A DNA stretch of 64,000 nucleotides from Alphaproteobacteria bacterium (lineage in GTDB: Bacteria > Pseudomonadota > Alphaproteobacteria > Sphingomonadales > Sphingomonadaceae): contig JAUHWC010000002.1 in NCBI GenBank assembly GCA_030424845.1, positions 1 through 64,000 on the forward strand, given 5' to 3'. The translations under genes were made by a program, and so were the position numbers. Under the pieces are notes generated by a model. It searched no databases and was not told the DNA's origin. It was given only the letters and a program-made list of their open reading frames with translations. Position 1 is the stretch's first letter. Each line of letters begins with the position of its first letter. Shown here piece after piece: positions 1-26,574 of this stretch.

Positions 1-1495
1 GCCAGCGATCCATGATGACCGCGGCGATCTGCCGTCCTTTGCCCGCTCCGGTTCCGTCGCCGAGGAAGAAGCCTTGGCGGTAGGAGTGTCCGTCCTCGGA
101 GAGTTCCAGCGAGGTGCCTTCCTGGCTTACCTTGAACTGGCCCGGAAGATCGCGCGCAAATGCCTGGGCAGCGTAGACCAGTGTCTCGCATTGCGCTTCG
201 GACAGAAGGCCATCCGCCTGCCAGCCTGCGGGTAGGCGCGGGCTAACGTCCGGCTGCGGCGCCGCGACCGAACCCATTGCGACCGATTCCACGAGTGGGG
301 TGGGATGGACCGGTGCATCTTCGAAGGCGATGCGACTGGGCCGGTAAGGCAGGTAGATGCCTGTCTGTTCAGGCACCGGCGCGGGGTCGGCCAAGACCGA
401 ATAGGCCAGGTCGATCGCGCTCGCCGTGACTGCTCGTGTCGCAGCGAATGGCGCCACCGGCCGGACCGACGCGCGATGTGTTGAGGTCTTGCCAACGAGG
501 CAGACTGGCTTCCCGATTGGCAGGCGATGGATGTTGGTGGAGGTCTCTACGCGTGGCGGAAGCTCGGTGACAAGTTCATGGAGCGCCATCAGGTCGCAGG
601 TATCTCCGCTGATCGCTGGCTCCGGCGCAGTAGGCACTTTATCGATGACGACGAGGCGAACGGCGATCCCCGTCCCTGTCCGGCGAAACATCTGCTGCAG
701 GCGAACATCGAGGAGCAGCGACGCTTCGTCCAGTGCCCTTGCGAATTTGGAAGCATCGAAGCCTTCGGGCATGATCGCGACAATCCTCGCCCCACTGGCG
801 GCGGCCCGGATCGCGCTGCGTAGGTGGCGCTGCGCCGTCTCGCCATCCTTGCCGCGTTCCTGGCTGCGGGCGAACGGCGGGTTCATCAACACGACCGACG
901 GAACAGGGCCGCGAAGCAGGTCGGCGGTCAGTTCACCGTCATGCGCAGTGATTGTGGCCGTGGGAAAGATATGGCCGAGGCTGTCTCGTCTTGCCGGATC
1001 GATCTCGTTGAGGACCAGCGAAGCGTTCTCGGCGCTGCCCCAAAGAGCAAGGGCACCATTGCCTGCGGACGGTTCGAGTAGGTTGTCTTGCGAAGAGACA
1101 GCTGCAGCCTTCGCCATAAGCCAGGCCAGCGTCGGCGGGGTCGAGAACTGCTGGAGATCAACCTGTGCTTCGCTGCGCACGTGCCGGGGCGGCAAGGCTG
1201 CTTCGAGCCAGTCAAACCGCGCTTCGGCTTCGTGTACGTTCGTCGCCAGATCGATGCGCGAAGACTCTCGCAACCAGAGCAGTGCGCCGATCTCGACCGC
1301 GTTGTTGTAGTCGTCGATTGTCCAGGCGCTTCCCCAGTCCAGTGCGCCGGTTTCCGCGGCGAACAGGTCGTAAATGTCGGCACGGGTAAGGTGACGACCC
1401 GAGGCGAGAAGCGCGGCAATCCTGGCCCCAATGGCGTAGGCCAGGGGCACTGTCGGCAACTGCTCGCCGGCGGGAAACAGGTCTGATTGAAACAT
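1..1495 (-). CDS. strawberry notch-like methylase/helicase, N-terminal part (continues beyond left edge)
   Basis: Open minus frame from ATG at 1495 (MFQSDLFPAGEQLPTVPLAYAIGARIAALL...) to the edge; contains LEPSAGNGALALW (SAM site) and VVLMNPPFARS (NPPF motif), then QGFFLGDGTGAGKGRQIAAVIMDRW (Walker A-like) at the edge. Not in the ORF track because it is open at the window edge. Confidence 0.85.
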   Translation of the reverse strand, partial: MFQSDLFPAGEQLPTVPLAYAIGARIAALLASGRHLTRADIYDLFAAETGALDWGSAWTIDDYNNAVEIGALLWLRESSRIDLATNVHEAEARFDWLEAALPPRHVRSEAQVDLQQFSTPPTLAWLMAKAAAVSSQDNLLEPSAGNGALALWGSAENASLVLNEIDPARRDSLGHIFPTATITAHDGELTADLLRGPVPSVVLMNPPFARSQERGKDGETAQRHLRSAIRAAASGARIVAIMPEGFDASKFARALDEASLLLDVRLQQMFRRTGTGIAVRLVVIDKVPTAPEPAISGDTCDLMALHELVTELPPRVETSTNIHRLPIGKPVCLVGKTSTHRASVRPVAPFAATRAVTASAIDLAYSVLADPAPVPEQTGIYLPYRPSRIAFEDAPVHPTPLVESVAMGSVAAPQPDVSPRLPAGWQADGLLSEAQCETLVYAAQAFARDLPGQFKVSQEGTSLELSEDGHSYRQGFFLGDGTGAGKGRQIAAVIMDRW

Positions 1496-1570
1496 GGCAA
1501 TTCGTCCTCCTGATGAAGGCATCGGGACACGCCCTCTGCCGGATCAGGAATTCGAGAAGCGCTCTCTCCT

Positions 1571-2470
1571 CTACGGCGCCGCCTTGCGGCGCAGCCATGC
1601 TGTAAGTTCATCGTTCCAGTCTGTGTCGCTTGAGGATGGCTTGCGAACGTGGATCTTCCGCCCATCGCGGGCATAAGCTGCCATGCCACGCGACGCGGCC
1701 AGCTCACCGCCAGCATCGTGATCTACGAAGAGATGAAGCTCGGTCGCGCTCTCGGGCACGCTGACGAGGCCGAAGCGCTCATTGCCCAGGGTCGCCCAGA
1801 CGGGAATACCAGTAAGAGCATAGGCCGACATCGCGCTCTCGATACCCTCGGCGAGGCCGAGCTTGCCGGAGGCCGGAGCGAAGAGGCGAACAGCAGCTTC
1901 ACCGAGCGCGCCGAGCGCGCGCTTGGGTTTCTCGAAATCGGCCTTGGCATTGCCCGAAAGAAACGTGCGATGGATGGCGATCGGCCCCTCGTCGAGGCTG
2001 ACCGCCGCAATCATGGCCGGCAAAAAGCGGGTGCGTCCCTTCGGACCAAGCGGCGTTTGTGGATGAAAGCGAAGCGCTGAAGATGCGGCGAGGATGCCGC
2101 GGTTCTCTAGATAGGCCTTTGCCGGACTCGCACTCAGTGGCCGTGCATCGCGCCAGATGCGCAAGGCAGCGGCCGAAGGCTTCGCTGCAGCACCAGTCTC
2201 CATCGTGGGCTCGATTGCGCCTCCCGAGAACAAGGCGGACGTCTGCACGCCTTCACGCGCCAGGGCTGCAAGCACGGACTCCTGATCGCATCCGGCGAAG
2301 CAATGGAGGAGGATGGCTCCATGCCCGAGGGATACGCCGAGCGAGGGCGTGCGGTCGTCATGTGCGGGGCAACGAGCCATGCCCTTGGTGCCGGACCATT
2401 TGCCGCCGCGGCTTTCACAGATACGTCTCGCCGTCTCGGCGAGTGGATGGCTGGTCGTGGCAACGGGCAT
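1571..2470 (-). CDS. CHC2-type zinc finger / toprim domain protein (plasmid/ICE primase-like)
   Basis: MARCPAHDDRTPSLGVS...LLHCFAGCDQESVLAAL and toprim-like LGLAEGIESAMSAYALTGIPVWATLG...LHLFVDHDAGG. Confidence 0.85.
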   Translation of the reverse strand: MPVATTSHPLAETARRICESRGGKWSGTKGMARCPAHDDRTPSLGVSLGHGAILLHCFAGCDQESVLAALAREGVQTSALFSGGAIEPTMETGAAAKPSAAALRIWRDARPLSASPAKAYLENRGILAASSALRFHPQTPLGPKGRTRFLPAMIAAVSLDEGPIAIHRTFLSGNAKADFEKPKRALGALGEAAVRLFAPASGKLGLAEGIESAMSAYALTGIPVWATLGNERFGLVSVPESATELHLFVDHDAGGELAASRGMAAYARDGRKIHVRKPSSSDTDWNDELTAWLRRKAAP

Positions 2471-2604
2471 AAGGGCTCCTTCGCAGGCTCGGGTCCCCCA
2501 TGACCGCTATCCTCCCCTCTCACTGTCGGGACGGACAATCTGTTTTCCTACATGTTCTATTTATGTTCTATTCCGATTCGCTGCAAGCGGCGGGAGTATG
2601 AAGG

Positions 2605-3171
2605 ATGAAATTGGCTTTGATGATCGGCATGATGGCGAGCGCCAGTATCATGGTGCCTTGCGCACAAGCGCGGGAGTTCGCCCTTCTGGAACATCGCTAT
2701 GAGCAGCCTGCTACCGCTGGTGATCAAGAGCTCTGGACCAGCGAGGAAGCGCGGTCGAGGGTACTGCTCCCTGCATCCTATCGCGAAGCACTTTACGAGC
2801 CGCTGATCAGGGAGGCTGAGGTTCGGTATCGTCTCCCGCCTGGACTGATGCAGGCCTTGGTGTGGGCCGAGTCTCGTTTCAATCCGATGGCGATCAGCCC
2901 GGCTGGCGCTGCCGGACTTGCGCAACTAATGCCGGCAACCGCCCGCGAGCTTGGCGTTCGGAACCGGCATGATCCCGCCCAGAACATCGATGGTGGTGCG
3001 CGCTATCTGCGGCAAATGTTGGACCGCTTTGGCGACGTCCATCTGGCGCTTGCCGCTTACAATGCTGGTCCGGGCGCAGTTGCTCGCGCTGGTGGCATCC
3101 CGAGAAATCGGGAAACGCCAGCATATGTCAGAAGCGTTTTGCAGCGTTGGATGGCATACAGGCCGTCATGA
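2605..3171 (+). CDS. lytic transglycosylase (SLT domain)
   Basis: GLMQALVWAESRFNPMAISPAGAAGLAQLMPATARELGVRN...GGARYLRQML...ALAAYNAGPGAV. Confidence 0.92.
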   Translation: MKLALMIGMMASASIMVPCAQAREFALLEHRYEQPATAGDQELWTSEEARSRVLLPASYREALYEPLIREAEVRYRLPPGLMQALVWAESRFNPMAISPAGAAGLAQLMPATARELGVRNRHDPAQNIDGGARYLRQMLDRFGDVHLALAAYNAGPGAVARAGGIPRNRETPAYVRSVLQRWMAYRPS

Positions 3172-3371
3172 ATTCGAATCGAAAACGTATCAGCGGACGG
3201 CTCGAGCAACTGCCACGCGGCTTCGCCATCGTAACCGAGGCGGGCGATCATTGGGTGCTCGAAGACGTCGAGCCGGCAAACGACCATTTCGGCAACGAAG
3301 TGACAGTGGAAGGCGAAGTCGTCGGTCTCGATCGCTTGCGCGTCGATTGGCTAGGCGAAATCGCCAACTGA
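3147..3371 (+). CDS. small DUF5818-like protein
   Basis: 74 aa, overlaps the end of the transglycosylase ORF; RISGRLEQLPRGFAIVTEAGDHWVLE. Confidence 0.6.
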   Translation: MDGIQAVMNSNRKRISGRLEQLPRGFAIVTEAGDHWVLEDVEPANDHFGNEVTVEGEVVGLDRLRVDWLGEIAN

Positions 3372-3506
3372 ATGGCATCGCATCTCTCCTCAATTTGTCG
3401 TCAAACTTGGTCCTAGCCAAGCGAAAGTGTGGGCCTGACTGTGGGTCTGAAAATCTCGAGGACTCAGAATTTTCCTTTATCTCCGCTGGTTATTGGAAAT
3501 GTCGGT

Positions 3507-3524
3507 CGGACTCCGTCTCCGCCA
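3507..3524. repeat. 18-bp direct repeat CGGACTCCGTCTCCGCCA, copy 1 (candidate att site)
   Basis: Identical to 11289-11306; brackets the accessory genes. Confidence 0.6.
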
Positions 3525-3606
3525 CCTTATTAATAATAACAGATGCTTATGGGTGCATATGTCATGCTACCCACCATCTTACCCACCTTTAAAACGGTGC
3601 TATCTA

Positions 3607-3624
3607 ACCAGCCACCGTCTGGTC
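3607..3624. repeat. 18-bp stem-loop repeat ACCAGCCACCGTCTGGTC, copy 1
   Basis: Identical to 4267-4284; ACCAG...CTGGT forms a short stem. Confidence 0.6.
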
Positions 3625-3794
3625 GGCTCCCTGATTTGACACCCCCACCCCCTGTGAAATCCTGACCAGCGGCACCCCACTGGGACGGCACCCCCCGATC
3701 CGTCAGATGGGACCCACGGGTTGTGTATACATACTAATCTGCGCGTTCGGTGTTCACCCTTGGAGCGAGTCGTTCGGTGACTAGTTCCAAGCTA

Positions 3795-4229
3795 TCAATC
3801 GCAGCGATGATCACCCCAATAGCGCTCCCAACGCAACGCCCACCCACCAGCAACCATGGCGCAGGACAGGTCGCCACCTATCGGTGAGACACACCAAGCA
3901 GCCGTGCGGCTTCCGACACCGTTACCAAGAGACGTGCAGGTCATTGTCGGACCCTCAACGAGAACATGTCCCTGCCCGCTACGACCAGTGGGTCTACCAA
4001 CCAGTCTCACAAGTGCATCTCTAGCTTCCTCAGCGCTTGCATCAGGGCAGGGCTGGTTACTGCGGCAGGTCCCGTCCATTTCACGCGCAGCAATACCGGA
4101 CAGCCTGATCCTAGGTCCCTCTTCGCACCAGATAGGGCCATCACCGTCCCAGACTCTAATGGGAGTGCAGGTGAACACCTGACCAGTTGGAACTACCGCT
4201 GTGGCGGCGAGGATGAGTAGGGATATCAT
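3795..4229 (-). CDS. thermonuclease (SNase-like) family protein, exported
   Basis: Signal peptide then PIRVWDGDGPIWCEEGPRIRLSGIAAREMDG...CPDASAEEARDALVRLVG. Confidence 0.8.
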   Translation of the reverse strand: MISLLILAATAVVPTGQVFTCTPIRVWDGDGPIWCEEGPRIRLSGIAAREMDGTCRSNQPCPDASAEEARDALVRLVGRPTGRSGQGHVLVEGPTMTCTSLGNGVGSRTAAWCVSPIGGDLSCAMVAGGWALRWERYWGDHRCD

Positions 4230-4266
4230 CGGGCAATAAAGGAACCACGGTGAAGCCTACCGCCCG

Positions 4267-4284
4267 ACCAGCCACCGTCTGGTC
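4267..4284. repeat. 18-bp stem-loop repeat ACCAGCCACCGTCTGGTC, copy 2
   Basis: Identical to 3607-3624. Confidence 0.6.
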
Positions 4285-4296
4285 TGCTCATGATGA

Positions 4297-4701
4297 TCAA
4301 CGCATCCGTGCTCGACAAACAGCACGGTGCAAGGCTCCTGAGGGGTCGTAGTCCCTCCCCCAGTCAATAATACTCTTCCAAGTCTCGACGCCCTCAACTT
4401 CCTGTACCCGTCCGTTGCGCAGATAGGTCAGGCTCTGGACGAGCCTGATAGCCGGTTCGGCACAATCAACTTCATAGAGCGCCCTGACTTCCCGAACATC
4501 ACGGTTCTCGTCGCCGTAACGATCACGTGCCCAGACTTGCCTGTTATCTCCCTCAGTGCGGACCGAACCGGCATCGTAAGAAGACACCACTCCAGCTTCG
4601 CTATCGCGACCAAACTCCACCCACTGTTCAACATCGTCAGCTGCCTGTGCAGCAACAGAAGCAAGGAAGGCGCATAGTGGAAGGATAGTCTTGAGTATCA
4701 C
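4297..4701 (-). CDS. small exported protein, surface-adhesin E-like
   Basis: Signal peptide MILKTILPLCAFLASVAAQA; SSYDAGSVRTEGDNRQVWARDRYGDE...ALYEVDCAEPAIRLVQSLTY. Confidence 0.55.
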   Translation of the reverse strand: MILKTILPLCAFLASVAAQAADDVEQWVEFGRDSEAGVVSSYDAGSVRTEGDNRQVWARDRYGDENRDVREVRALYEVDCAEPAIRLVQSLTYLRNGRVQEVEGVETWKSIIDWGRDYDPSGALHRAVCRARMR

Positions 4702-5021
4702 GCGCCTGCTCTCCCCTTCGGTTTCCTACCCCGCCATCGCGGCGTTCCTTTGGGCACCAGCCCGTATGCGAATGATAGTGCCTCAAGCTCGTGCAGTTCT
4801 GCAAGCCTCTTGCTCCGCTCGGCCTTGGCTTCGAGCGTCTCCTGCCCATGCTGGCAGTTCCAGTGGTCCTTGCCCCGCTTAATAGCTTCAGGCTTCTTGG
4901 CACCGTGGTATCTGCACACGGCCATACCGTAGGCGGCTGGGTTGCGGCACTGGTCACCCCATGCCTTGCACTGAGCCTTGCACCGAGGTGCATTACCAGA
5001 GATGATGTTGGGCAGCGGCAT
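4698..5021 (-). CDS. HGGxSTG-type small cysteine-containing protein
   Basis: MPLPNIISGNAPRCKAQCKAWGDQCRNPAAYGMAVCRYHGAKKPEAIKRGKDHWNCQHGQETLEAKAER. Confidence 0.65.
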   Translation of the reverse strand: MPLPNIISGNAPRCKAQCKAWGDQCRNPAAYGMAVCRYHGAKKPEAIKRGKDHWNCQHGQETLEAKAERSKRLAELHELEALSFAYGLVPKGTPRWRGRKPKGRAGA

Positions 5022-5084
5022 GCAGCATTATAGCATGCCACCGGGTGGTGCTGGAGCTTATCTGCCGTTATCCACGAGGAGCGG
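4941..5084. repeat. ~144-bp imperfect direct repeat, copy 1 (5' end of HGGxSTG gene plus its divergent promoter)
   Basis: Aligns to 8475-8619 at constant offset 3534; e.g. ACCAGAGATGATGTTGG(G/A)CAGCGGCATGCAGCATTATAGCATGCC and GTGGTGCTGGAG(C/T)TTATCTGCCGTTATCCAC. Confidence 0.9.
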
Positions 5085-5125
5085 AGTCCACATCTGCAAA
5101 CTAAACTAATAAAGGCGATACTCAA

Positions 5126-8100
5126 ATGCATCGGTCGTTGACTGCATCAGATCTGGATCTCATTGCAAAGACTATTTCGATCCTTCCGGAAGCAGTAGAA
5201 AATTGCGGCGTTGAGATCCGCGAATATGACGCTAACGCTGTCGTACTCCCTGAAGGAGGGGTTGAAGACATAGCCTGCCTCATCCTTTTGGGATCGGTAC
5301 GCACAGCGCTTCAAGCGGATCACGGTGGATTGATCACCCTTGAACGGCACGAACGCGGCGCACTGCTTGACAAAGCGATGTTCAGCCAAAGGCTTTGGTC
5401 TCGGCAGGCCCGCGTCTTGGCTGCCACCCGATCTTTGGTCGCCCTGATCCCTAGCTCCCTCTTACATGCCCGCGAGGACGCTAGCGCAGAATACGGGGAG
5501 CAAAAGGCGATTGAGAGCGATGGTGTAATAGACCATTTAAATGATCTTTCCGAAACGGGCGCGCGTATGGCCGCCTTACTTCAAGAGGAAGGCAAGTTCG
5601 AGGCCTTAGAGATCAAAGCGGGAGACGTCCTTTTTGAAGAGGGCGATGCGGCAGATTTTGCCTGCCTTGTTCTGACCGGTCGCCTCGAGGCACTTCAATG
5701 GGACCAAGGCGTGCAAAAGGTAATTGGCTCCAGTGGGCCGGGAACCTTGGTTGGCGAGTTGGGCGTTCTTGACCATCAGCCGCGCGCGGCCACGGTACGC
5801 GCGCTTGAGAAGTCGACCGTGGTGTTTCTGTCAGCCGACCTAACACGAAGACTATGTAGTACCGCCGGTTTGTCGAGCTTGACCTCTGCGCTGCGCGCAG
5901 CCTACGCACTTTCGGGCTGGGGCATTGCCTATAGCGTTTTGACGCCAGGCGCTGACGAGGATGAAATCCTCACCACTATACAGCTGGAAGATAATCGGGT
6001 CGTTTCGGTCACCCGCGGGTTGAAATCCCGCATGGTAGTTGCGCGAGCCACGACGCTCCCTGACAAGATCCTACGATCTCAGAATGGTCGGCTTAAGATC
6101 GGCATCGCTGACGACAGACTAGTGCTCGTGGAAGGACCTGAAGGGTGGGCTGATCTTCCGAAGCTGATGGAATATCTGTTGGCCGGACGTATTCTGGAGT
6201 CCTGGCGTCAGTCGGCATTCGAGACGAACGAAACCTTCCTCTTTACCAACGAAACGGAACTGCTGCCTGATTCCGTTGCTTGCGCATGCACGGGCGCGAG
6301 TGTTGCTAAAATCCGTGGGCACGCCGCCGGCGGAGCAACCACACTTAGGGATATTGAACAAGCGTGCGGTGCTGGCGGCGTTTGTGGCGGCTGCCGCAGT
6401 CGCATTTCGACGCTCCTTGGAAGGGAAAATTTTACACTCTGCCAAGCAAAAGTGAGCTCCCTGTGTTCAGGAGCTGTTCGTTTGCTTCTTGAACCGATCG
6501 GTAGCACATTCCCAACTATATCTCCCGGCCAACATGTGGCGGTCGACGGCTTAGTCGACGGGGCATGGTTAACGCGCAGCTACACCGTCGTGCATTGCAA
6601 CGCGCAAACACTCGAGCTCGGCGTGAAAATCGAACAGTATGGTGAATTTTCAAGATGGCTAGCTACTCAGACAGAGCCGACGCTCATGCGGGTGTCTCAG
6701 CCCCAAGGCGACCCAATCACAGCCGGCGGTCCGCCGCTCATGTTTCTAGTTGCTGGTATTGGTGTCACCCCAGCCATAGCCGCTCTTCGCGCGGTCTCCG
6801 ACCAGAGGCGCCTCGATATAACCTATATTTACCGCAGCCGGGACGTTGCAGCTTATCTCACCGAGCTTGAAGACGCAGCCAAAGATGGGCTCATCGAGTT
6901 TCGCGGCATTTGCACCACAGAAACGGACAGACCCGATCTCAAGTCACTGATCGAGAGCGCGTTGACGGCATCTGGCTCGGAGGAAGCCTTTGTTTGTGGG
7001 CCGCCCGAGTGGGCCGAAACTATCACCGGCTTGCTGAAGGAAAAAGGGATCACGGTTCGCACTGAAGCTTTCACCCACTCTGGCACCTCTGGCGGACCTG
7101 CATTGGTCTGCCCTGGATCTTGGCGAGACGCTGCAAAACCACACACCTCCCCAAACTGGACTCAATACACTTTAGACAATCCAGGGACCCAGCTCGACGA
7201 ATCACGTTCTTTCATCGAGCAATTCTTCAGTGAACACGATGGCATGGGCGGCTTTGAAAGCCGTTGGCGTGAAGTTGAAGGAGAAATCCAAAGCACTGGC
7301 AGTTACCATCAGACAATTGAAGAAATGTCCTTTGGAGCAAAAGTTGCTTGGCGCAACTCAACTAAATGTATTGGGCGTCTTTACTGGTCAGGCTTAAAGG
7401 TTCGTGATTGTCGACATATCAAACACCCTGATGATGTGGCAACAGAACTCTTCAAGCACCTCGATTTAGCCTACAATAATGGGAATCTCAAACCAGTTAT
7501 GACGGTTTTTGATCCAGGCTCGATTGACCAACCTGCTGTACGCATCTGGAACCCTCAACTAATGCGTTACGCTGGATATCAAAATGGTCAGGAAAAGCCT
7601 GTTGGTGATCCTGCACAGTTGGAATTAACTAGAGCCATACAAAAATTAGGCTGGCGGGGTGTGGGATCTGACTTCGACTTATTGCCAATTGTCGTGGAAG
7701 TTGCGGGACACAAGCCCCAAGTCTACGAAATTCCGGCCGAACAACGGTATGAAGTGGACATTCGCCATCCGGATTATCCGCGCCTACACGAACTTGGCTT
7801 GAAATGGTACGCAGTTCCCGCAGTCTCAGACATGGCCCTAGACTGTGGGGGCATCCTGTATCGCTGCGCACCGTTTAATGGGTGGTACATGGCCACTGAG
7901 ATTGGCGCGCGGAACTTCACTGATGTGGAACGATATAATCTAGCGCTCGAGGTTGCACAGAAACTTGGTCTTGATACGAGCCGTGAGAGCAACCTCTGGC
8001 GTGACAAAGTCCTCATAGCAATGACTGAAGCTGTGCTTTGGAGTTTTGAGGCTGACGGCGTTAAGATCGCAGACCACTTCAGTGCTTCTCTTGAGTTTCT

Positions 8101-8269
8101 GCAGTTCTGCAAAAATGAACAAGAGCAAGGGCGGGATGTGCAAGGACACTGGCCTTGGCTGGTGCCTCCGATCGGCGGGTCTGCGACACCGCTTTTTCTA
8201 GATCAATGGAATGATTTGGACATCAAGCCCGCTCTTAGACCGCAAGATCCCTGCAGCTGGGAAGGGTGA
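5126..8269 (+). CDS. self-contained nitric oxide synthase: tandem cNMP-binding-like domains, BFD-like [2Fe-2S], FAD/NAD(P) reductase, NOS oxygenase
   Basis: 1047 aa. cNMP PBC motif GELGVLDHQPRAATVRA (aa 210-226); CxC-x31-CxxC (C386, C388, C420, C423); FAD RSYT (aa 484-487), GIGVTP, CGP; NOSox WRNSTKCIGRLYWSGL (heme Cys748), FNGWYMATEIGARNF, HWPWLVPPIGGSATPLF. Confidence 0.95.
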   Translation: MHRSLTASDLDLIAKTISILPEAVENCGVEIREYDANAVVLPEGGVEDIACLILLGSVRTALQADHGGLITLERHERGALLDKAMFSQRLWSRQARVLAATRSLVALIPSSLLHAREDASAEYGEQKAIESDGVIDHLNDLSETGARMAALLQEEGKFEALEIKAGDVLFEEGDAADFACLVLTGRLEALQWDQGVQKVIGSSGPGTLVGELGVLDHQPRAATVRALEKSTVVFLSADLTRRLCSTAGLSSLTSALRAAYALSGWGIAYSVLTPGADEDEILTTIQLEDNRVVSVTRGLKSRMVVARATTLPDKILRSQNGRLKIGIADDRLVLVEGPEGWADLPKLMEYLLAGRILESWRQSAFETNETFLFTNETELLPDSVACACTGASVAKIRGHAAGGATTLRDIEQACGAGGVCGGCRSRISTLLGRENFTLCQAKVSSLCSGAVRLLLEPIGSTFPTISPGQHVAVDGLVDGAWLTRSYTVVHCNAQTLELGVKIEQYGEFSRWLATQTEPTLMRVSQPQGDPITAGGPPLMFLVAGIGVTPAIAALRAVSDQRRLDITYIYRSRDVAAYLTELEDAAKDGLIEFRGICTTETDRPDLKSLIESALTASGSEEAFVCGPPEWAETITGLLKEKGITVRTEAFTHSGTSGGPALVCPGSWRDAAKPHTSPNWTQYTLDNPGTQLDESRSFIEQFFSEHDGMGGFESRWREVEGEIQSTGSYHQTIEEMSFGAKVAWRNSTKCIGRLYWSGLKVRDCRHIKHPDDVATELFKHLDLAYNNGNLKPVMTVFDPGSIDQPAVRIWNPQLMRYAGYQNGQEKPVGDPAQLELTRAIQKLGWRGVGSDFDLLPIVVEVAGHKPQVYEIPAEQRYEVDIRHPDYPRLHELGLKWYAVPAVSDMALDCGGILYRCAPFNGWYMATEIGARNFTDVERYNLALEVAQKLGLDTSRESNLWRDKVLIAMTEAVLWSFEADGVKIADHFSASLEFLQFCKNEQEQGRDVQGHWPWLVPPIGGSATPLFLDQWNDLDIKPALRPQDPCSWEG

Positions 8270-8286
8270 GATGGAATGTATATGGA

Positions 8287-8484
8287 TTACCCTCCGACTT
8301 GCACATTCCCATTCTGCCCTTTTGCCGCTTCCACTTGGACTATCATCGCTCTGGCCTGACCCCGCTGGCGGTGTAGTTCAGCCAAGGCAGTATCCATCTG
8401 GGTTGCATCTACGTAGGACGCAGCGTCTGCCGCTAGTATCTCAGTTTCGTTCAATAAGCGCTCTGCAAGGTGCAGTTGTGGCAC
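8287..8484 (-). CDS. hypothetical 65-aa protein
   Basis: ORF MPQLHLAERLLNETEILAADAASYVDATQMDTALAELHRQRGQARAMIVQVEAAKGQ; amphipathic composition, starts inside repeat copy 2. Confidence 0.3.
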   Translation of the reverse strand: MPQLHLAERLLNETEILAADAASYVDATQMDTALAELHRQRGQARAMIVQVEAAKGQNGNVQVGG

Positions 8485-8555
8485 TGCTCGCCCCTTGCCT
8501 TACACTGAGCCTTGCACTGGGGTGTATTACCAGAGATGATGTTGGACAGCGGCAT
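8451..8555 (-). pseudogene. truncated second copy of the HGGxSTG gene
   Basis: MPLSNIISGNTPQCKAQCKARGEQCHNCTLQSAY* versus MPLPNIISGNAPRCKAQCKAWGDQCRNPAAYG... of 4698-5021; homology ends near 8475. Confidence 0.8.
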
Positions 8556-8619
8556 GCAGCATTATAGCATGCCCCAAGGTGGTGCTGGAGTTTATCTGCC
8601 GTTATCCACCGGGGAGCGA
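8475..8619. repeat. ~144-bp imperfect direct repeat, copy 2
   Basis: Pairs with 4941-5084; one indel near the right end. Confidence 0.9.
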
Positions 8620-8639
8620 ACTGGAAGGGGCATGTAAGA

Positions 8640-9083
8640 ATGACCAAACTAAGAGCTGTTGGCGCAGCGTGCGTTCTCTCGGTCACATCGAATGGTCACC
8701 TTAGTTATGGCGTGGCACAGACAATTGAAGATGCTTGGGAGAAACTTCCATCCTCTGCGTTTGACCCCAACGGCATAGCTGAGATCAATCTCAGTTCAGT
8801 GCAGCGTGATGGCAATTTCGTATTTGTGCAAATCAGATATCGCACACCGCCGCTGACCGAAACAAATGCTCAAGAAATTGATGCCGCTGGTCTGGAAGGT
8901 TTTCCTGCCAGCATAACTATGACGCAGGGATACGACTGCGAGAATGAAAAATTCACCACGCTGCGAATGAGCATCATCACCTTCGATGGCCAACAAGATG
9001 AGATGCCCGCTCCCCCTGAAGCGGATTACGAAAAACCGCTAGAAGGTTCGATAAATGAATACCTGATTGAAACCCTGTGTTGA
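8640..9083 (+). CDS. small exported hypothetical protein (possibly surface-adhesin E-like)
   Basis: 147 aa; N-terminal hydrophobic segment, INLSSVQRDGNFVFVQIRYRTPP...QGYDCENEKFTTLRMSI...INEYLIETLC. Confidence 0.5.
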   Translation: MTKLRAVGAACVLSVTSNGHLSYGVAQTIEDAWEKLPSSAFDPNGIAEINLSSVQRDGNFVFVQIRYRTPPLTETNAQEIDAAGLEGFPASITMTQGYDCENEKFTTLRMSIITFDGQQDEMPAPPEADYEKPLEGSINEYLIETLC

Positions 9084-9142
9084 GCACGCTGCTGAGCTTG
9101 CAAGTGTAAGTCTGCGGCCGTAACGCAATGAACATTCATCTA

Positions 9143-10027
9143 CTAAAAAGATAGGTATTGCCGTAATTCTCGCTCACGGTTGCGATTGTAACGCTCTTCA
9201 CATTGCGCCGCGATTGCCTGCTGGCCTACGACTTCGATCGTCGCAGAAGCCCCTTCAAGCTGGCACTCTGCTGTCTTACGACGGATCCAGGCTCTTTGGA
9301 CCTGCAGAAGATCTTCCCGTACTTTTTCGGGTAACGCACGCCAGACTGCATTTATTGACTGCTCAGACAGCGTTTTCTGCGCATTTGCCTCAGAAAGCCT
9401 CGCAGCAGCAGCTGCCTCTTGAGCCTCGGTCAATTCGCGCTCCCGTCGCTCGGCTTCAGCTGTTTCTATTGCCTCGCGCGAACGAACCTCAGGCAACACG
9501 AGGTGAGAAGCTGTAACATAAGCCATCAGCAAATTTGATGGTGCAACATCTAATATCTCTACGTAAAGCCCCTCATCGCTGTCGGTTGGCTGCATTTCAA
9601 ATTCTAGCTCGTTCGTGAAAGCGCGGCCCCTGGAACGAAAACCAGCCACCTCAGCCAATGCATCCACATCAGAATAACTAATGTAAGCGAGTGCTTCATC
9701 AGCATCGTCGAGAACATTCTGTGGGAAGCTTATTTCAAGTTCTGCTGCACAGGACCTAATGCCCAAATCCTTGTCAAAGCTGATAGTGCGGACGCTCTTG
9801 AGGCCGATTTCTATGCTACCTATAGCGCTCATTATAGTTTCAGTTGTAGCTGCTGAATATCCAGCCTCACCCAGGACCTTGCGCACCTGGCTCGCAACAT
9901 CGTCTTTTAGCAATTCTTCCACAAGAACCAACGCATCACCGTCAGCGCAGTCGACAGCCTGTATCTGATCGCATCCTAGCAATGAGAAGCACGCCATTAG
10001 GGCTAAGCCGGGCCTTTTCCAACTCAT
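9143..10027 (-). CDS. lipoprotein with C-terminal LprI/DUF1311-like region
   Basis: Lipobox MSWKRPGLALMACFSLLGCDQ (ATG at 10027; track ORF starts at 10048); C-term DLLQVQRAWIRRKTAECQLEGA...AAQCEERYNRNRERELRQYL. Confidence 0.6.
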   Translation of the reverse strand: MSWKRPGLALMACFSLLGCDQIQAVDCADGDALVLVEELLKDDVASQVRKVLGEAGYSAATTETIMSAIGSIEIGLKSVRTISFDKDLGIRSCAAELEISFPQNVLDDADEALAYISYSDVDALAEVAGFRSRGRAFTNELEFEMQPTDSDEGLYVEILDVAPSNLLMAYVTASHLVLPEVRSREAIETAEAERRERELTEAQEAAAAARLSEANAQKTLSEQSINAVWRALPEKVREDLLQVQRAWIRRKTAECQLEGASATIEVVGQQAIAAQCEERYNRNRERELRQYLSF

Positions 10028-10208
10028 GATCATCTCCAAACGCCACACTGCTAGTTCAAGTCGTAGTCGAGAATCGTTGCCCCCTTTGACTTTTTGCTAG
10101 AGCAAGACACACAATCTTGAAACCCTATCCCAATGGTCGTGGCGGCCACTGTCAGCATTCCTCACTCGTGCTCTTGTGCGGTAGATTTAGGAGGCTAGCC
10201 TTATGCAG

Positions 10209-10787
10209 CTATTGCAGTTGGCTAGTCTCACGGATCAAAGACCAATCGTAACCAAGGCCTTCAACGCGATGTCTAAGCTCGGTGCGGCTCTCTTCATCTA
10301 GTACGGCTTCGCGGGACAAAACCCACAGGTATGTGCCAGACGGCTCGCCCACGATTGACCATTGGTAGTCCGTATCGTGATCTAAAATCCAATAATCGCC
10401 TGAGAACGGCCAGAAGAAGGTAACCCGCAGCTTGGCATTGGTAACAGTGTCTACCACTCTTGCCGTACCGTTCGCAGTCGTCAGCGGGCCATCCACGCCA
10501 CCTTTGCGGCAGCTGTTTATGACGTCTATCCTGCCGTCGTCTCTGAGCGTGTAATCAGCTGTGACCGCCTCGCAGTCCTTTTGGAACGGTGCCTCATAGC
10601 GGTAAATTTCGTACCACCTGCCCAGATAGCGTTCGACCTCTACAGATCTAGCAGGTTCAGGTACCGCTGCATTTCCTACTGGCCGTGATGCCATCATTGC
10701 GCAGCCCGGCAAGGCTAAGGTCAGCACCGCAGCAAAAGCTAAAAGCGCGAATTTGGCACCAGCGTATTTCATGTCCTGCTTGCTCAC
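10209..10787 (-). CDS. lipocalin family lipoprotein (Blc-like)
   Basis: LPGCAMM lipobox; VERYLGRWYEIYRYEAPFQKDCEAVTADYTLRDDGRIDVINSC...FWPFSGDYWILDHDTDYQWSIVGEPSGTYLWVLSR. Confidence 0.9.
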   Translation of the reverse strand: MSKQDMKYAGAKFALLAFAAVLTLALPGCAMMASRPVGNAAVPEPARSVEVERYLGRWYEIYRYEAPFQKDCEAVTADYTLRDDGRIDVINSCRKGGVDGPLTTANGTARVVDTVTNAKLRVTFFWPFSGDYWILDHDTDYQWSIVGEPSGTYLWVLSREAVLDEESRTELRHRVEGLGYDWSLIRETSQLQ

Positions 10788-11059
10788 CGCCTACCACCGG
10801 GGAACGGTATCACGTTGTCGTCGTCGAGGAATATCCGCATGCCTTCTTCTTCTACCGTTAGCTGGAACGCTGCGTAGGCCTCGTCGTCGGTATCAAACAG
10901 GTCGCCCCAGACGGTTGAGGTGCCCTCTTCATTGACCACTTCCAGCGCCCACTGCGGGTCGTCTTCCAGCCGGTAAATCTTCACGTCCACGGTCACACCG
11001 TCGATGCTCAACCCACGCCCGAGGCTAGAGTAGATGATGTTGGGGTCACGGTCGCGCAT
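10784..11059 (-). CDS. hypothetical 91-aa protein
   Basis: ATG ORF overlapping the lipocalin start; IIYSSLGRGLSIDGVTVDVKIYRLEDDPQWALEVVNEEGTSTVW. Confidence 0.55.
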   Translation of the reverse strand: MRDRDPNIIYSSLGRGLSIDGVTVDVKIYRLEDDPQWALEVVNEEGTSTVWGDLFDTDDEAYAAFQLTVEEEGMRIFLDDDNVIPFPGGRR

Positions 11060-11288
11060 GGTGGTCGGTCCTTGGGTTACGCATCAGCCGTGTAACCCAC
11101 CGTTGTCGATGTTGTTGCCTGTCGTGCAGTCAGTGCGGAGGCAGATACTCTACCCACCTTTATACCCTCCTTTCGGTACAAGATTGTAGTGGGGCGCATT
11201 GTACTTTACAAGAGCTCGAAACCAATAATTACAGTAGTTTGACAGTGTCTACATAGCACTTGAAAGAGCCTATTGGAGCCTAGTTGGG

Positions 11289-11306
11289 CGGACTCCGTCT
11301 CCGCCA
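11289..11306. repeat. 18-bp direct repeat CGGACTCCGTCTCCGCCA, copy 2 (candidate att site)
   Basis: Identical to 3507-3524; ~120 bp before msrB. Confidence 0.6.
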
Positions 11307-19659: not shown

Positions 19660-19667
19660 GTGCCGCA

Positions 19668-19686
19668 CTGTCACGCACGTGTCATT
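19668..19686 (+). promoter_or_regulatory. PHO-box-like site CTGTCACGCACGTGTCATT upstream of the T4SS operon
   Basis: CTGTCAC-4-GTGTCAT, 11-bp period; 58 bp before the VirB1-like GTG start. Confidence 0.35.
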
Positions 19687-19725
19687 TGTTGTAAGCAAAG
19701 AGCCGCGATTGGAGGCTATGCCCAA

Positions 19726-20355
19726 GTGATTCTGACACGTTCCCTCGCTGCCATCGCGCTGGCCGTGCCCGCGGCATTTGCCGTGCCTGCACAGGCCGAT
19801 GTGCTGGAAGTGGGCGATAGCGGCGAAGCGCGCTGGGTGTCAGGAGCCGGCGCTCTGGTGGTTCAGGCCGGAAGCACAAGCGAGCTGGCAGAAGTACCGG
19901 GCACCGCACAAGCCGTGCCGGAGGCCGCCGTGGCCGATACACGCCGCCATGCCGGGGGCATTCCTGAACGCTATGCCCCGCTGGTGGAGCAACTTTCCGC
20001 GAAATACGACCTCTCGCCCGCGCTGATCGAGGCGGTGGTTTGGCAGGAAAGCCGTTGGCGCGAGAATGCCGTGTCGCCTGCCGGTGCACGCGGGCTTGCC
20101 CAGCTTATGCCCGGCACCGCACGCGAGCTTGGCGTGAACGCGGACGATCCTGCCGCCAACCTTGAAGGCGGCGCCCGCTACCTGCGCGAACAGCTCGACC
20201 GTTTCGACGGCGACCTCGAACGCGCGCTTGCGGCCTACAACGCCGGGCCAGGCCGCGTGATCCGCGCCAATGGCATCCCGCGCATTCGCGAAACACAGAA
20301 TTATGTCAGCTCCATCATGGGCCGACTGTCGAACCATTCCCGGAGTACTGAATAG
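19726..20355 (+). CDS. VirB1-like lytic transglycosylase
   Basis: LIEAVVWQESRWRENAVSPAGARGLAQLMPGTARELGVNADDPAANLEGGARYLREQLDRF; GTG start with GGAGG RBS and signal peptide; track ORF begins 19660. Confidence 0.9.
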   Translation: MILTRSLAAIALAVPAAFAVPAQADVLEVGDSGEARWVSGAGALVVQAGSTSELAEVPGTAQAVPEAAVADTRRHAGGIPERYAPLVEQLSAKYDLSPALIEAVVWQESRWRENAVSPAGARGLAQLMPGTARELGVNADDPAANLEGGARYLREQLDRFDGDLERALAAYNAGPGRVIRANGIPRIRETQNYVSSIMGRLSNHSRSTE

Positions 20356-20357
20356 AA

Positions 20358-20669
20358 ATGTCGTTCAAAGCCCGCCTGACCGCTCCCCTTGCAGCCCTCG
20401 CCGCGCTTCTTGCGCCGGTTGCCGCGCATGCGCAGTCCACCGCCGGCGCCGGCCCGATCGAGGCTGCCTTTGCCTGGATGCAGGCAACGCTGCTGGGCCA
20501 GATCGCCACCATGGTTGCCGTGATGGCCGTTGCTGCCGTGGGCTTCATGATGCTGACCGGCCGCATGAACTGGCGCTTCGGCGCCACCGTGATCATCGGC
20601 TGCTTCATCATCTTCGGCGCGGCCACCATCGTCGGCGGCATCCAGTCTGCCGCAGGCGGCGCGGGCTGA
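20358..20669 (+). CDS. virB2: TrbC/VirB2 family pilin-like protein
   Basis: Signal peptide plus two hydrophobic segments, first of the virB run. Confidence 0.8.
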   Translation: MSFKARLTAPLAALAALLAPVAAHAQSTAGAGPIEAAFAWMQATLLGQIATMVAVMAVAAVGFMMLTGRMNWRFGATVIIGCFIIFGAATIVGGIQSAAGGAG

Positions 20670-20673
20670 TCCG

Positions 20674-20955
20674 ATGCAGTTGACCCGCCACCCCGTGCAC
20701 CGTGCGCTCACGCGTCCACAGATGTTCGCCGGGGTTACCTACAACTACTTCATCATCAATGCGCTGGTGACGACCGAGGCCTTCCTTATCCTGAAGAGCC
20801 TGTGGATCATCCCCATTCCCTTCGTGTTGCATGCGATCGGATACTTCGCCTGCCTTCGCGAACCGCGCTTCTTCGACCTGTGGATCACCAAGGTCAGCAA
20901 ATGCCCGCGCGTGAAGAACTACAAGCGCTGGGGCTGCAACAGCTACGCCCCGTAA
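20674..20955 (+). CDS. virB3: VirB3 family protein
   Basis: HRALTRPQMFAGVTYNYFIINALVTTEAFLI...REPRFFDLWITKVSKCPR; between virB2 and virB4. Confidence 0.85.
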   Translation: MQLTRHPVHRALTRPQMFAGVTYNYFIINALVTTEAFLILKSLWIIPIPFVLHAIGYFACLREPRFFDLWITKVSKCPRVKNYKRWGCNSYAP

Positions 20956-20977
20956 AGGCGCGCAAAGGAAACTGATT

Positions 20978-23404
20978 ATGGCCAAATGGCTTGGAGCCGC
21001 AGCGTGGAGCGCGAAGGAAGCGCAAGCCGGCGATCGCCTGCCCTATGCGCAGCTGGTCGATTCCGATGTCGTGCTGCTGCGTGACGGATCGCTGATGGGC
21101 GCGCTGCAGGTTCCCGGCCTGCTATTCGAGACCGAGGATACCGATGCGCTCAACGCCCACGCCGCCACGCGCGAGGTAATGCTGCGTTCCAATCTCGACG
21201 GGCGCTTCGTGCTCTATCACCACGTCATCCGCCGCCGCGTCTCGGTGGAACTGGAAGCCAGTTTCGATGATCCGCTGTCCGCGCATATCGATGCCAGTTG
21301 GCGCAGGAAGCTATCCTCCGGATCGCTGTTCGTGAATGACCAGTTCATCACCCTGGTGCGCCGCCCGGCGCGCGGCAAGGCGGGCTGGGGCGAAAAGCTG
21401 GCCCGCATGTTCGGCGGCAAGGCGAGCGAGGCAGAGGAAGTCGATCCCAAGGACCTGCGCTCCCTTCGCGCAGCCTTGCAGGCGCTGGCTGCATCGCTGG
21501 GTGACTATGGCGCGCAGCCGCTCACTGACTACACCGGTCCCAGCGGCCATGTGAACAACGAGCTGCTGGAGCTGCTTTCCGCGCTCTACAATGGCGAGAT
21601 GCGCCCGGTACGCCGCCCGGATGACGCGACCGATATCGGCAATATGCTGCCCTATCGCCGCGCCAGCTTCGGGATCGACGCCATGGAACTGCGCGGTGCC
21701 GGCGGTGCCGATTTCGCCAGCATCCTGAGCCTCAAGGATTACCCCGACGCCACCAGCCCCGGCTTGCTGGATGCCATGCTGCGCCTGCCGCACGAGATGG
21801 TGGTGACGGAGAGTTTCGCCCCCGAGGAACGCCAGACCGCCCGCGAGAAGATCGACCTGGCCTTGCGCCGCCTGCGTTCGGCTGACGAGGAAGCGCAGGC
21901 CGAACGTGCGGACATGATGGCCGCGCGCGACGAGCTGGGTGCCGGCTCGGTCGCATTCGGGGACCACCACCTGTCCGTGCTGGTCCGCGATGCCACGCTT
22001 GACGGGCTGGACGATGCCACCGCCCGCGTTGCCGCCGCTTTGGCTGATACGGGCGCGATTGCCGTGCGCGAGGATACCAACCTTGAACCGGCCTTCTGGG
22101 GCCAGTTCCCCGGCAACGAGCAATACCTTGTCCGCCGCGCGCTGATCTCCACCGCCAACATGGCTGGCTTCGGGTCGTTGCACGGCTTTGCGCTGGGGCA
22201 GGCGGAAGGCAATCACTGGGGACAAGCCGTCACGCTGCTGCAAACGACCAGCTCGACACCGTTCTTCTTCAATTTCCACCACGGCGACCTGGGCAATTTC
22301 AGCATCATCGGTCCGTCCGGTTCGGGCAAGACGGTGGTGATGAACTTCCTTGCAGCCCAAGCGCAGAAGTTTTCCCCGCGCACCATCCTGTTCGACAAGG
22401 ATCGCGGCGCGGAACTGTTCATTCGCGGGATCGGCGGCAGCTATGACCGCGTGCGTTCGGGCGAGCCATCGGGTTTCAACCCTCTCGCCTTGCCTGACAC
22501 GCCCGTAAACCGCGCCTTCCTGCGCGATTGGCTGGGCGTGCTGCTTTCCGCCCAAGGTCCGGAGGAACTGCAAACCATCGCGCAGGCGGTGGATGCAGCC
22601 TATGCCAACGATCCGGCTCTGCGCCGCCTGCGCCATTTCAAGGAACTGGTGTCCGGCAGCCGCCGCCCGCAGGCGGGCGACCTTGCCGATCGCCTGTCCG
22701 CATGGATCGAGGACGGCGAGCATGGCTGGCTGTTCGACAACGCCACCGACAAGCTGGACCTGTCCACCCGCGTCATGGGTTTTGACATGACCGCGCTACT
22801 GGAAAACCCCAAGCTGCGCACGCCGGTGATGATGTACCTGTTCCACCGCATTGACGAGCGGCTGGACGGCGAGCCGACGATGATCCTGATCGACGAGGGC
22901 TGGAAGGCGCTGGACGACGAGGTGTTCGCCGCCCGCATCCGCGACTGGCTGAAGACCCTGAGGAAGCGCAACGCGCTGGTCGGATTTGCCACCCAGTCTG
23001 CCCGCGATGCGCTGGACAGCCGCATTTCCACCGCGCTGGTGGAACAGACCGCGACGATGATCTTCATGCCCAATGCCCGCGCCCGGGCAGAGGATTACTG
23101 CGAAGGCTTCGGCCTGACCGAACATGAGTTCCACCTGATCAAGTCGCTGCCCGCGCACAGCCGCTGCTTCCTGGTTCGCCAGCCCGATGCCAGCGTGGTC
23201 GTGCGGCTGGACCTTTCTGGCGCACCCGAGGTTCTTACCATCCTTTCCGGGCGGGAAAGCTCCGTTCGCCGGCTTGACCTGCTGCGCGAAGCGGTGGGTG
23301 ATGATCCGGCTCAATGGTATCCTGCACTCACCAACCGCCGATGGCCCGGCACGCCGGGCGGTGTGGATGGCGAGATCGACAGTGACTGGGAGGCTGCCGA
23401 GTGA
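20978..23404 (+). CDS. virB4: VirB4 family T4SS ATPase
   Basis: Walker A GPSGSGKTVVMNF, Walker B MILIDEGWKALDDEVF, FATQSARDAL. Confidence 0.95.
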   Translation: MAKWLGAAAWSAKEAQAGDRLPYAQLVDSDVVLLRDGSLMGALQVPGLLFETEDTDALNAHAATREVMLRSNLDGRFVLYHHVIRRRVSVELEASFDDPLSAHIDASWRRKLSSGSLFVNDQFITLVRRPARGKAGWGEKLARMFGGKASEAEEVDPKDLRSLRAALQALAASLGDYGAQPLTDYTGPSGHVNNELLELLSALYNGEMRPVRRPDDATDIGNMLPYRRASFGIDAMELRGAGGADFASILSLKDYPDATSPGLLDAMLRLPHEMVVTESFAPEERQTAREKIDLALRRLRSADEEAQAERADMMAARDELGAGSVAFGDHHLSVLVRDATLDGLDDATARVAAALADTGAIAVREDTNLEPAFWGQFPGNEQYLVRRALISTANMAGFGSLHGFALGQAEGNHWGQAVTLLQTTSSTPFFFNFHHGDLGNFSIIGPSGSGKTVVMNFLAAQAQKFSPRTILFDKDRGAELFIRGIGGSYDRVRSGEPSGFNPLALPDTPVNRAFLRDWLGVLLSAQGPEELQTIAQAVDAAYANDPALRRLRHFKELVSGSRRPQAGDLADRLSAWIEDGEHGWLFDNATDKLDLSTRVMGFDMTALLENPKLRTPVMMYLFHRIDERLDGEPTMILIDEGWKALDDEVFAARIRDWLKTLRKRNALVGFATQSARDALDSRISTALVEQTATMIFMPNARARAEDYCEGFGLTEHEFHLIKSLPAHSRCFLVRQPDASVVVRLDLSGAPEVLTILSGRESSVRRLDLLREAVGDDPAQWYPALTNRRWPGTPGGVDGEIDSDWEAAE

Positions 23405-24597
23405 CACCGGCACAGGCCACTTCTGTCCAATGCGCCAATGCGCTGGAAGGCGTGGGTGCCGGCATCGGCGCATCCTTGCGTGCCATCGATTGCGCGGCGG
23501 GCGAGATGTCTCAGGCCGCATTCAGCCGCATCTTCGGGGCCGAAGGCGCATTCCAGTTGCCGCTGCAGATCCTGCTCACCATCTTCGTCGCCCTGCTCGG
23601 CTTCGGCCTTGTCACGGGGCGCCTGAGGATCGGCCTCTCCTCGCTCGTCCCGCGCCTTGTCACGCTGGGCGTCGTGCTGACCTTTGCCACCAGCTGGATC
23701 GCCTTCCAGTCCGTGTTCTGGAACCTGCTGGTTCTGGGGCCGGACGAGATTGCCGGCGGGCTGATGGGCGGCGATGGTTCTGCGACCACCATCTTCGCCG
23801 ACAAGCTCGACGTGGTGATGTATTCGCTGATGGAGGTTTCCGGCGGCGATGGCATGGCCGAAACCACCTCGATCTTCTCGCCACCCGGTCTCTTGTGGAG
23901 CGGCGGCACCATGCTGTTGCTGGGCACGGTGGGTGTGCTGGCCACCTGCAAGATCGCGCTTGCCGTGCTGATGGCGCTGGGGCCGATCTTCATTGTCACC
24001 GCCCTGTTCAAGGCGACCCGCGGGCTGTTTGCAGGATGGCTCAAGGCCGCCGTGCTGATGTCGCTCGCCCCGCTGTTCGCCGTGCTTGCCGGATCGCTGA
24101 TGCTGGAACTGGCAACGCCCGTCCTTTCTGCGCTAATGGCCACGCCCGGCCGGATCGACGTGCGCCCGGCCATGGCCTTCTTCATGATCGGCGCGGTGCA
24201 CCTGGCGCTGATGTTCATGGTCATGAAGATCACCACCACGATGGTGAACGGCTGGAACGTGTTCGGCTTTGCCGGATCGAGTGACCGCACCGATACCGGC
24301 GGCAGCCGCCCGGCCGCGGATCGCTCGCCTTCGCAGGTCATGCTCAACACCACGGTGGCCGACCGGCAGGCCCAGGCCGCCAGTGCCCCGGCATCGCGTG
24401 ATATCCGCATCAGCCAGGCTGCCCCGCTCGCCGCCAACGATACCGGCGGCGCATCGCGCGAAACGGTCCGCGAAACCCGCGTCATCACCCAAGGCGCTTC
24501 AATGTCCGGCCAGCAAGGTCCATCCACACAATCGCGTGCCCGCGGCATTGGCAGCCGCTTCAAGTCCGCACCCGTTCGTTCCACGGAGAAGAAGTAA
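23401..24597 (+). CDS. virB6: TrbL/VirB6 family T4SS membrane protein
   Basis: Polytopic; ALGPIFIVTALFKATRGLFAGWLKAAVLMSLAPLFAVLAG; between virB4 and virB9. Confidence 0.85.
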   Translation: MTPAQATSVQCANALEGVGAGIGASLRAIDCAAGEMSQAAFSRIFGAEGAFQLPLQILLTIFVALLGFGLVTGRLRIGLSSLVPRLVTLGVVLTFATSWIAFQSVFWNLLVLGPDEIAGGLMGGDGSATTIFADKLDVVMYSLMEVSGGDGMAETTSIFSPPGLLWSGGTMLLLGTVGVLATCKIALAVLMALGPIFIVTALFKATRGLFAGWLKAAVLMSLAPLFAVLAGSLMLELATPVLSALMATPGRIDVRPAMAFFMIGAVHLALMFMVMKITTTMVNGWNVFGFAGSSDRTDTGGSRPAADRSPSQVMLNTTVADRQAQAASAPASRDIRISQAAPLAANDTGGASRETVRETRVITQGASMSGQQGPSTQSRARGIGSRFKSAPVRSTEKK

Positions 24598-25404: not shown

Positions 25405-25427
25405 AGGCCCGGACTGGAGGAAACGCG

Positions 25428-26564: not shown

Positions 26565-26574
26565 GGTTTCGCCA

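Follow-up and report, generated by a model that had tools for sequence, protein, structure and literature searches.

A fused nitric oxide synthase with tandem cyclic nucleotide-binding-type domains as cargo of a tRNA-Ser(GCT) island in a sphingomonad

Results

A single reading frame encodes a reductase and a complete NOS oxygenase

The DNA that we analyzed (the window) is a 64,000-nt stretch from a genome of the Sphingomonadaceae, and its features are listed in Table 1. As the initial annotation had proposed, it contains one open ATG-initiated reading frame in which a reductase is followed by a nitric oxide synthase (NOS) oxygenase domain, hereafter NOSox. All the motifs quoted at that stage could be located in the translation of this protein, P0001, namely RSYT (residues 484-487), GIGVTP (544-549) and CGP (624-626) in the reductase, and WRNSTKCIGRLYW (742-754), FNGWYMATEIG (917-927) and HWPWLVPPIGGSATPLF (1008-1024) in the oxygenase. 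P0001 is not the product of a chance ORF, since fused homologs are 57-63% identical to it and codon position 3 is far less conserved in the gene than positions 1 and 2. A purine-rich stretch, AAAGG, lies ahead of the ATG at 5126, and P0001 is the sole NOS in its own 2.83-Mb genome. Its modules are arranged in the order cNMP1-cNMP2-X-BFD[2Fe-2S]-FNR(FAD/NAD(P))-NOSox.

Table 1. Features of the NOS locus and of the island that carries it
Feature	Window position	Strand	Details
Island, right-hand part in window	1..11306	.	remainder on contig C8, at least 19.4 kb
144-bp direct repeat, left copy	4941..5083	.	flanks NOS gene, 89.6% identity
Fused NOS ORF (P0001)	5126..8269	+	1047 aa, ATG start, open throughout
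cNMP-like domain 1, aa 30-115	5213..5470	+	AF2 beta-roll; cassette (aa 78-100) degenerate
cNMP-binding domain 2, aa 158-246	5597..5863	+	cassette GELGVLDHQPRAATVRA, aa 210-226, window 5753-5803
Linker domain X, all-beta, aa ~259-368	5900..6229	+	AF2 model of aa 252-440, pLDDT 87.8
BFD-type [2Fe-2S] domain, aa 384-432	6275..6421	+	Cys 386, 388, 420, 423
FNR/PaaE-like FAD and NAD(P) reductase, aa 440-650	6443..7075	+	motifs RSYT, GIGVTP, CGP
NOS oxygenase domain, aa 690-1041	7193..8248	+	Pfam, conserved residues, AF2
144-bp direct repeat, right copy	8475..8618	.	flanks NOS gene, 89.6% identity
attR-like copy of tRNA-Ser(GCT) 3' end, CTCCGTCTCCGCCA	11293..11306	+	island right end

The oxygenase, which had been described as complete, is matched by the Pfam profile NO_synthase (PF02898) at residues 690-1041 with an E value of 5.1e-140, that is, with 466.9 bits against a cut-off of 22.7 and over profile positions 6-358 of 362. 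All the active-site residues that we checked are present: the heme ligand Cys748, the Arg-binding Glu925, Val900, and the pterin-site residues Arg929, Trp1009 and Trp1011. A full-length domain with heme Cys, Arg-binding Glu and pterin-site Arg/Trp places P0001 in the PF02898 family. The domain aligns with Bacillus subtilis NOS along its entire length, is 43-45% identical to oxygenase-only bacterial NOSs (B. subtilis and others), and its AF2 model superposes on B. subtilis NOS with a TM score of 0.91. The full-length AF2 model is of moderate quality (pLDDT 76.8, pTM 0.64), and the domain arrangement in it is not secure.

Of the profiles that the initial annotation had put forward for verification, NO_synthase, Fer2_BFD (residues 386-431, E 3.9e-7, above cut-off) and cNMP_binding (two stretches, E 2.4e-23) were all found, while FAD_binding_6 gave a weak match (E 0.0017) that remains under its curated cut-off. 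As the FAD and NAD(P) Pfam scores both lie below these cut-offs, the assignment of this module rests on its motifs and its relatives. The best NCBIfam matches to this middle part of the protein are PaaE-like reductases. No flavodoxin/FMN domain was detected by Pfam among matches up to E 0.1, nor did Pfam reveal EF-hand, globin or diflavin reductase domains. We ruled out a flavohemoglobin because the profile match is confined to the reductase part of that protein. The unnamed linker domain X, common to nearly all fused NOSs, has no PDB match in Foldseek at E≤0.001, and a BphA4/AIF-like identity (E 1.4) was discarded as noise.

The N terminus is a tandem pair of cNMP-binding-type domains

The initial annotation had named cNMP_binding merely as a profile to check. 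Our analysis reveals that the first 250 residues of P0001 form a tandem pair of such domains. Domain 2 scores 69.2 bits against PF00027 and its cassette, GELGVLDHQPRAATVRA, is consensus-like, with the G-E-...-R-[AST]-A pattern by which we recognized cassettes, a pattern that the cassette of domain 1 does not show. When compared with the nearest relatives, domain 2 is 62% identical, versus 37-38% for domain 1. Domain 2 is conserved to the same degree as the reductase.

Two cNMP domains are found in P0001, L009, L010, L012-L015, L023 and L029. Which of the two cassettes is preserved varies within this group: L009 and L010 resemble P0001, with GELGVLDHQPRAATVRA or a near version of it in domain 2 and a degenerate domain 1; L014 and L015 have an intact-looking cassette in domain 1 and a degenerate one in domain 2; L012, L013 and L029 keep domain 1 and at least part of the domain 2 cassette intact-looking; and L023 combines an intact-looking domain 1 cassette with a variant in domain 2. 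At least one intact-looking cassette per full-length cNMP member argues for retained ligand binding. Other fused NOSs, from Sorangium, Waterburya and two delta metagenome-assembled genomes (MAGs), carry an EF-hand pair at the N terminus, with canonical loops such as DTNQDGSIDFDE. The Lichenifustis protein L022 retains the core with no cNMP or EF-hand sensor that we could recognize.

The EF-hands of the Sorangium and Microcoleus NOSs have already been noted (PMC7400543). No report of a cNMP form of NOS was found in the literature that we searched, in which subscription papers are mostly not included. It is the cNMP sensor variant of this rare class that is previously undescribed in this literature, and not the kind of enzyme.

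Fused NOSs of the scNOS type extend beyond two or three bacteria

A scan of genome contigs uncovered at least 16 fused-NOS loci (L009-L023 and L029) in Myxococcota, Cyanobacteriota, Sericytochromatia, Rokubacteria and Proteobacteria. Closest to P0001 among the matches listed are L009, L010 and L011, identical at 57-63% of positions over most of its length, which come from gamma- and alphaproteobacterial MAGs with short contigs and possible binning errors. More distant fused NOSs among the matches listed belong to Sericytochromatia, Reyranella, Pseudomonadales, Rokubacteria, Polyangium, Sorangium (three strains), other Myxococcota-like MAGs, the cyanobacterium Waterburya (L017) and Lichenifustis. 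In the phylum of Sorangium, 4 of the 331 genomes sampled have a NOS, in three of them as a long fused frame, one with an in-frame TAG. A single in-frame stop inside the oxygenase part occurs in the EF-hand fused NOS at L016:2098-5652 (and L139). Samples of the family, order and class of the window's genome yielded three oxygenase-only NOSs and no other fused NOS. A whole-protein search of plasmids returned matches to the oxygenase or reductase parts alone and no fused copy, and the viral contigs searched also held no fused copy and one oxygenase-only NOS (L142:5905-7092), on a 134-kb IMG/VR contig that may be a plasmid because helix-turn-helix/excisionase-like and ParB-like genes are among its neighbors. 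The gene context of the oxygenase-only NOSs L002, L003, L004 and L005 looks like a biosynthetic operon that uses a NOS.

In an alignment of 16 fused proteins (P0001 and 15 relatives), the following residues are invariant in all 16: the BFD cysteines 386, 388, 420 and 423; R484-x-Y486-T487, G544-I545-G546-x-T548-P549 and C624-G625 in the reductase; and heme C748, E925, V900, W1009 and W1011 in the oxygenase. At the position of V900, bacterial NOSs usually have Ile and mammalian NOSs Val, the latter being linked to efficient NO release (PMC9500659).

In the NOSox tree, the fused proteins, Sorangium NOS included, form one clade (99/95) together with L007; on this tree and on the reductase tree described below, P0001 and Sorangium scNOS belong to one fused-NOS lineage. 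Within it, the cNMP proteins form a clade of their own (96/91), to which L011 was assigned by its place in the tree since a contig end cuts off its N terminus, while L022 and L007 fall together with the EF-hand proteins (96/96). L007:4977-6185 encodes an oxygenase-only NOS and belongs to a plasmid of Rhizobium rhizoryzae. The AU test rejects a grouping of the fused proteins from which it is left out (p 0.0016), and its nested position suggests secondary loss of its reductase. A tree of the reductase only, with the same proteins, likewise sets the cNMP and EF-hand types apart, and the split in both trees indicates that core and sensor were inherited together. A single sensor switch would be the simplest reading of these trees, which fit either direction.

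Comparison with characterized NOS systems

The module order that the initial annotation had likened to that of scNOS (Agapie et al. 2009, known to us through PMC3701330 and PMC9311577) is indeed the same: in both proteins a single chain carries an N-terminal [2Fe-2S]-FAD-NAD(P) reductase and a C-terminal NOSox, without an FMN domain, an inverted order that is reviewed in PMC3701330. They also share the linker domain region as well as the clade described above, and are about 30% identical overall. Where P0001 has the tandem cNMP domains, scNOS has an EF-hand pair that comes after another N-terminal region. As we regard the EF-hand pair as a variable sensor rather than as a defining feature, P0001 would qualify as scNOS-type by its N-terminal [2Fe-2S], FAD and NAD(P) modules on one flavodoxin-free chain. 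The cyanobacterial NOSs of Microcoleus (PMC7400543) and Waterburya have the same reductase-oxygenase order and core as P0001 but an EF-hand sensor instead of a cNMP sensor. SyNOS from Synechococcus PCC 7335 (PMC6104048, PMC12922734) is, like P0001, a multidomain protein with its own reductase, but it differs by a globin domain, a mammalian-like diflavin (FMN/FAD) reductase, C2-domain control and the lack of a BFD cluster; a SyNOS type was ruled out for P0001 because its globin and FMN domains are both missing. Finally, oxygenase-only bacterial NOSs share the NOSox fold and catalytic residues with P0001, but have no reductase and usually an Ile in place of Val900 (PMC9500659).

The NOS gene is cargo of an island in tRNA-Ser(GCT)

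That the gene lies on mobile DNA, as had been suspected from the sequence, is borne out by the ends of an island, at least 30 kb long, that is integrated in tRNA-Ser(GCT). The attL site and a tyrosine integrase gene (L136:8078-8169, L137:319-1461) are on contig C8, where the integrase, which has an arm-binding, a central and a catalytic domain, comes after tRNA-Ser(GCT) and is followed to the contig end by at least 19.4 kb of 55% GC with sugar-acid-type catabolic genes. The attR site is on contig C9, and a contig gap interrupts the middle of the island. The repeated tRNA 3' end, CTCCGTCTCCGCCA, is 14 bp long, and the sequence past the window copy matches the flank in the sister genome G855. 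This makes the NOS gene cargo, and from its stop codon it is another 3.0 kb downstream to the island's right end. G855 is syntenic with the window from 11426 onward; upstream of this point, that genome shows the empty site, with tRNA-Ser(GCT) followed directly by an MsrB gene. The locus thus combines an integrase beside the tRNA with a 3' repeat at the far end, and the site is empty in a relative. GC content is 54% at 2.5-11.3 kb versus 64% beyond.

Within the island, the NOS gene has small secreted or lipocalin genes as neighbors and lies between direct repeats of 144 bp. A small Cys-rich ORF (4698-5021, minus strand) has its 5' end inside this repeat, which also covers the sequence upstream of NOS and upstream of the following gene (8640); neither the repeat nor the ORF has a match in the plasmids searched. 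No neighbor gene was seen to be shared among L009, L010, L011 and the window, and the NOS of L010 is surrounded by transposase-like genes, a setting that suits a gene able to function by itself.

The window past attR, outside the island, contains VirB-type secretion genes at 19660-27621 (lytic transglycosylase, VirB4-, TrbL-, VirB9-, VirB10- and VirB11-like) and, at 32420-62300, a cluster resembling aromatic catabolism, with carotenoid-cleavage-type oxygenases, PQQ-type dehydrogenases, a tannase-like esterase, aldehyde dehydrogenases and a TauD-like dioxygenase.

Cyclic-nucleotide supply in the host

A profile search of the window's own genome, covering class III (PF00211) and class I (PF01295) adenylate cyclases, returned no match, versus class III cyclases in 13 of the 13 relative genomes searched. 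The sensor may thus have no cAMP in this host, where the cyclic-nucleotide gating that we infer would perhaps be orphaned. The same genome holds no H-NOX partner. It does encode, on contig C3 (L093:8788-11274, minus strand), an 829-aa chain that joins a flavoprotein resembling pyridine-nucleotide reductases, two cNMP domains with intact-looking cassettes and a 4Fe-4S ferredoxin, the gene adjoining multiheme cytochrome-like genes.

Discussion

Three points had escaped the initial annotation, namely the tandem cNMP sensor, the breadth of the class and the integration in tRNA-Ser. Taking these into account, we think it likely that P0001 is a self-sufficient scNOS-type NOS with the cNMP pair as allosteric input, carried as stand-alone island cargo. 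Judging from its family (scNOS) and its conserved cofactor residues, NAD(P)H would reduce FAD in the FNR-like module, and electrons would travel singly via the BFD-type [2Fe-2S] cluster to the thiolate heme of the oxygenase. This C-terminal part, as a dimer, would use a tetrahydropterin (tetrahydrofolate or BH4) to convert L-Arg to citrulline and NO. The tandem cNMP module would serve as an allosteric input, either gate or brake, in place of the EF-hand pair of scNOS, with domain 2 and its consensus-like cassette as the likely ligand site and domain 1 having degenerated. Transfer of the gene by an integrative island, as stand-alone cargo, would fit an enzyme that can do without a dedicated partner.

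The role of the cNMP module is where a different reading deserves most attention. P0001 could be a working self-sufficient NOS in which this module is a structural or dimerization element, or binds another ligand, the enzyme being constitutive or controlled by expression in a host without cAMP. The lack of PF00211 and PF01295 matches in the host, the degenerate cassette of domain 1 and the existence in Lichenifustis of a core with no recognized sensor would all agree with this. We nevertheless regard it as rather unlikely, because the cassette of domain 2 is consensus-like and this domain is as conserved as the reductase, because the second host protein with two intact-looking cassettes makes an unrecognized ligand possible, and because the cyclase search took in two classes.

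As for the product and fate of the enzyme, two further readings seem improbable to us. The chemistry might serve a biosynthetic step, in which a metabolite is nitrated, nitrosated or N-hydroxylated, and not signaling or protection by free NO, seeing that the family's oxygenase-only NOSs (L002-L005) adjoin a radical SAM-like gene, in the Novosphingobium plasmid case (L005) also a glycosyltransferase gene, and that the NOS of a Nostoc plasmid has SDR, desaturase and aminotransferase genes around it. However, the NOS of the window is not part of a biosynthetic operon, its small secreted and lipocalin neighbors do not recur in L009-L011, and the sphingomonad oxygenase-only NOSs fall in another clade. 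Slightly more improbable still is that the gene is silent cargo, unexpressed or decaying in its host. Its foreign composition (GC3 of 54%, versus 79-82% in the host genes SelO and ppk), the degenerate domain 1 and our failure to find a promoter-like match upstream point that way, but the frame is full-length, its catalytic residues are all kept and AAAGG precedes the start codon. The degeneration of domain 1 is shared by relatives and thus no sign of recent decay.

Animal NOSs are under calcium control through calmodulin. To our knowledge, the control of bacterial NO synthesis is largely unknown. We tentatively raise the possibility, to which we give not quite even chances, that a single ancestral [2Fe-2S]-reductase-NOS core was fitted with alternative second-messenger inputs, calcium-type EF-hands in one branch and tandem cNMP domains in the other, giving rise to island-mobile cyclic-nucleotide-gated NO synthases. 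If true, bacteria would couple cAMP or cGMP directly to NO output, and islands could carry such genes into hosts that may supply a different ligand or none. The finding enlarges a class that is often described by one characterized enzyme, and the fused family offers compact NOSs that would need no partner protein. With a calcium-type or a cyclic-nucleotide-type sensor placed before the same core, second-messenger control of bacterial NO would become a direct biochemical question.
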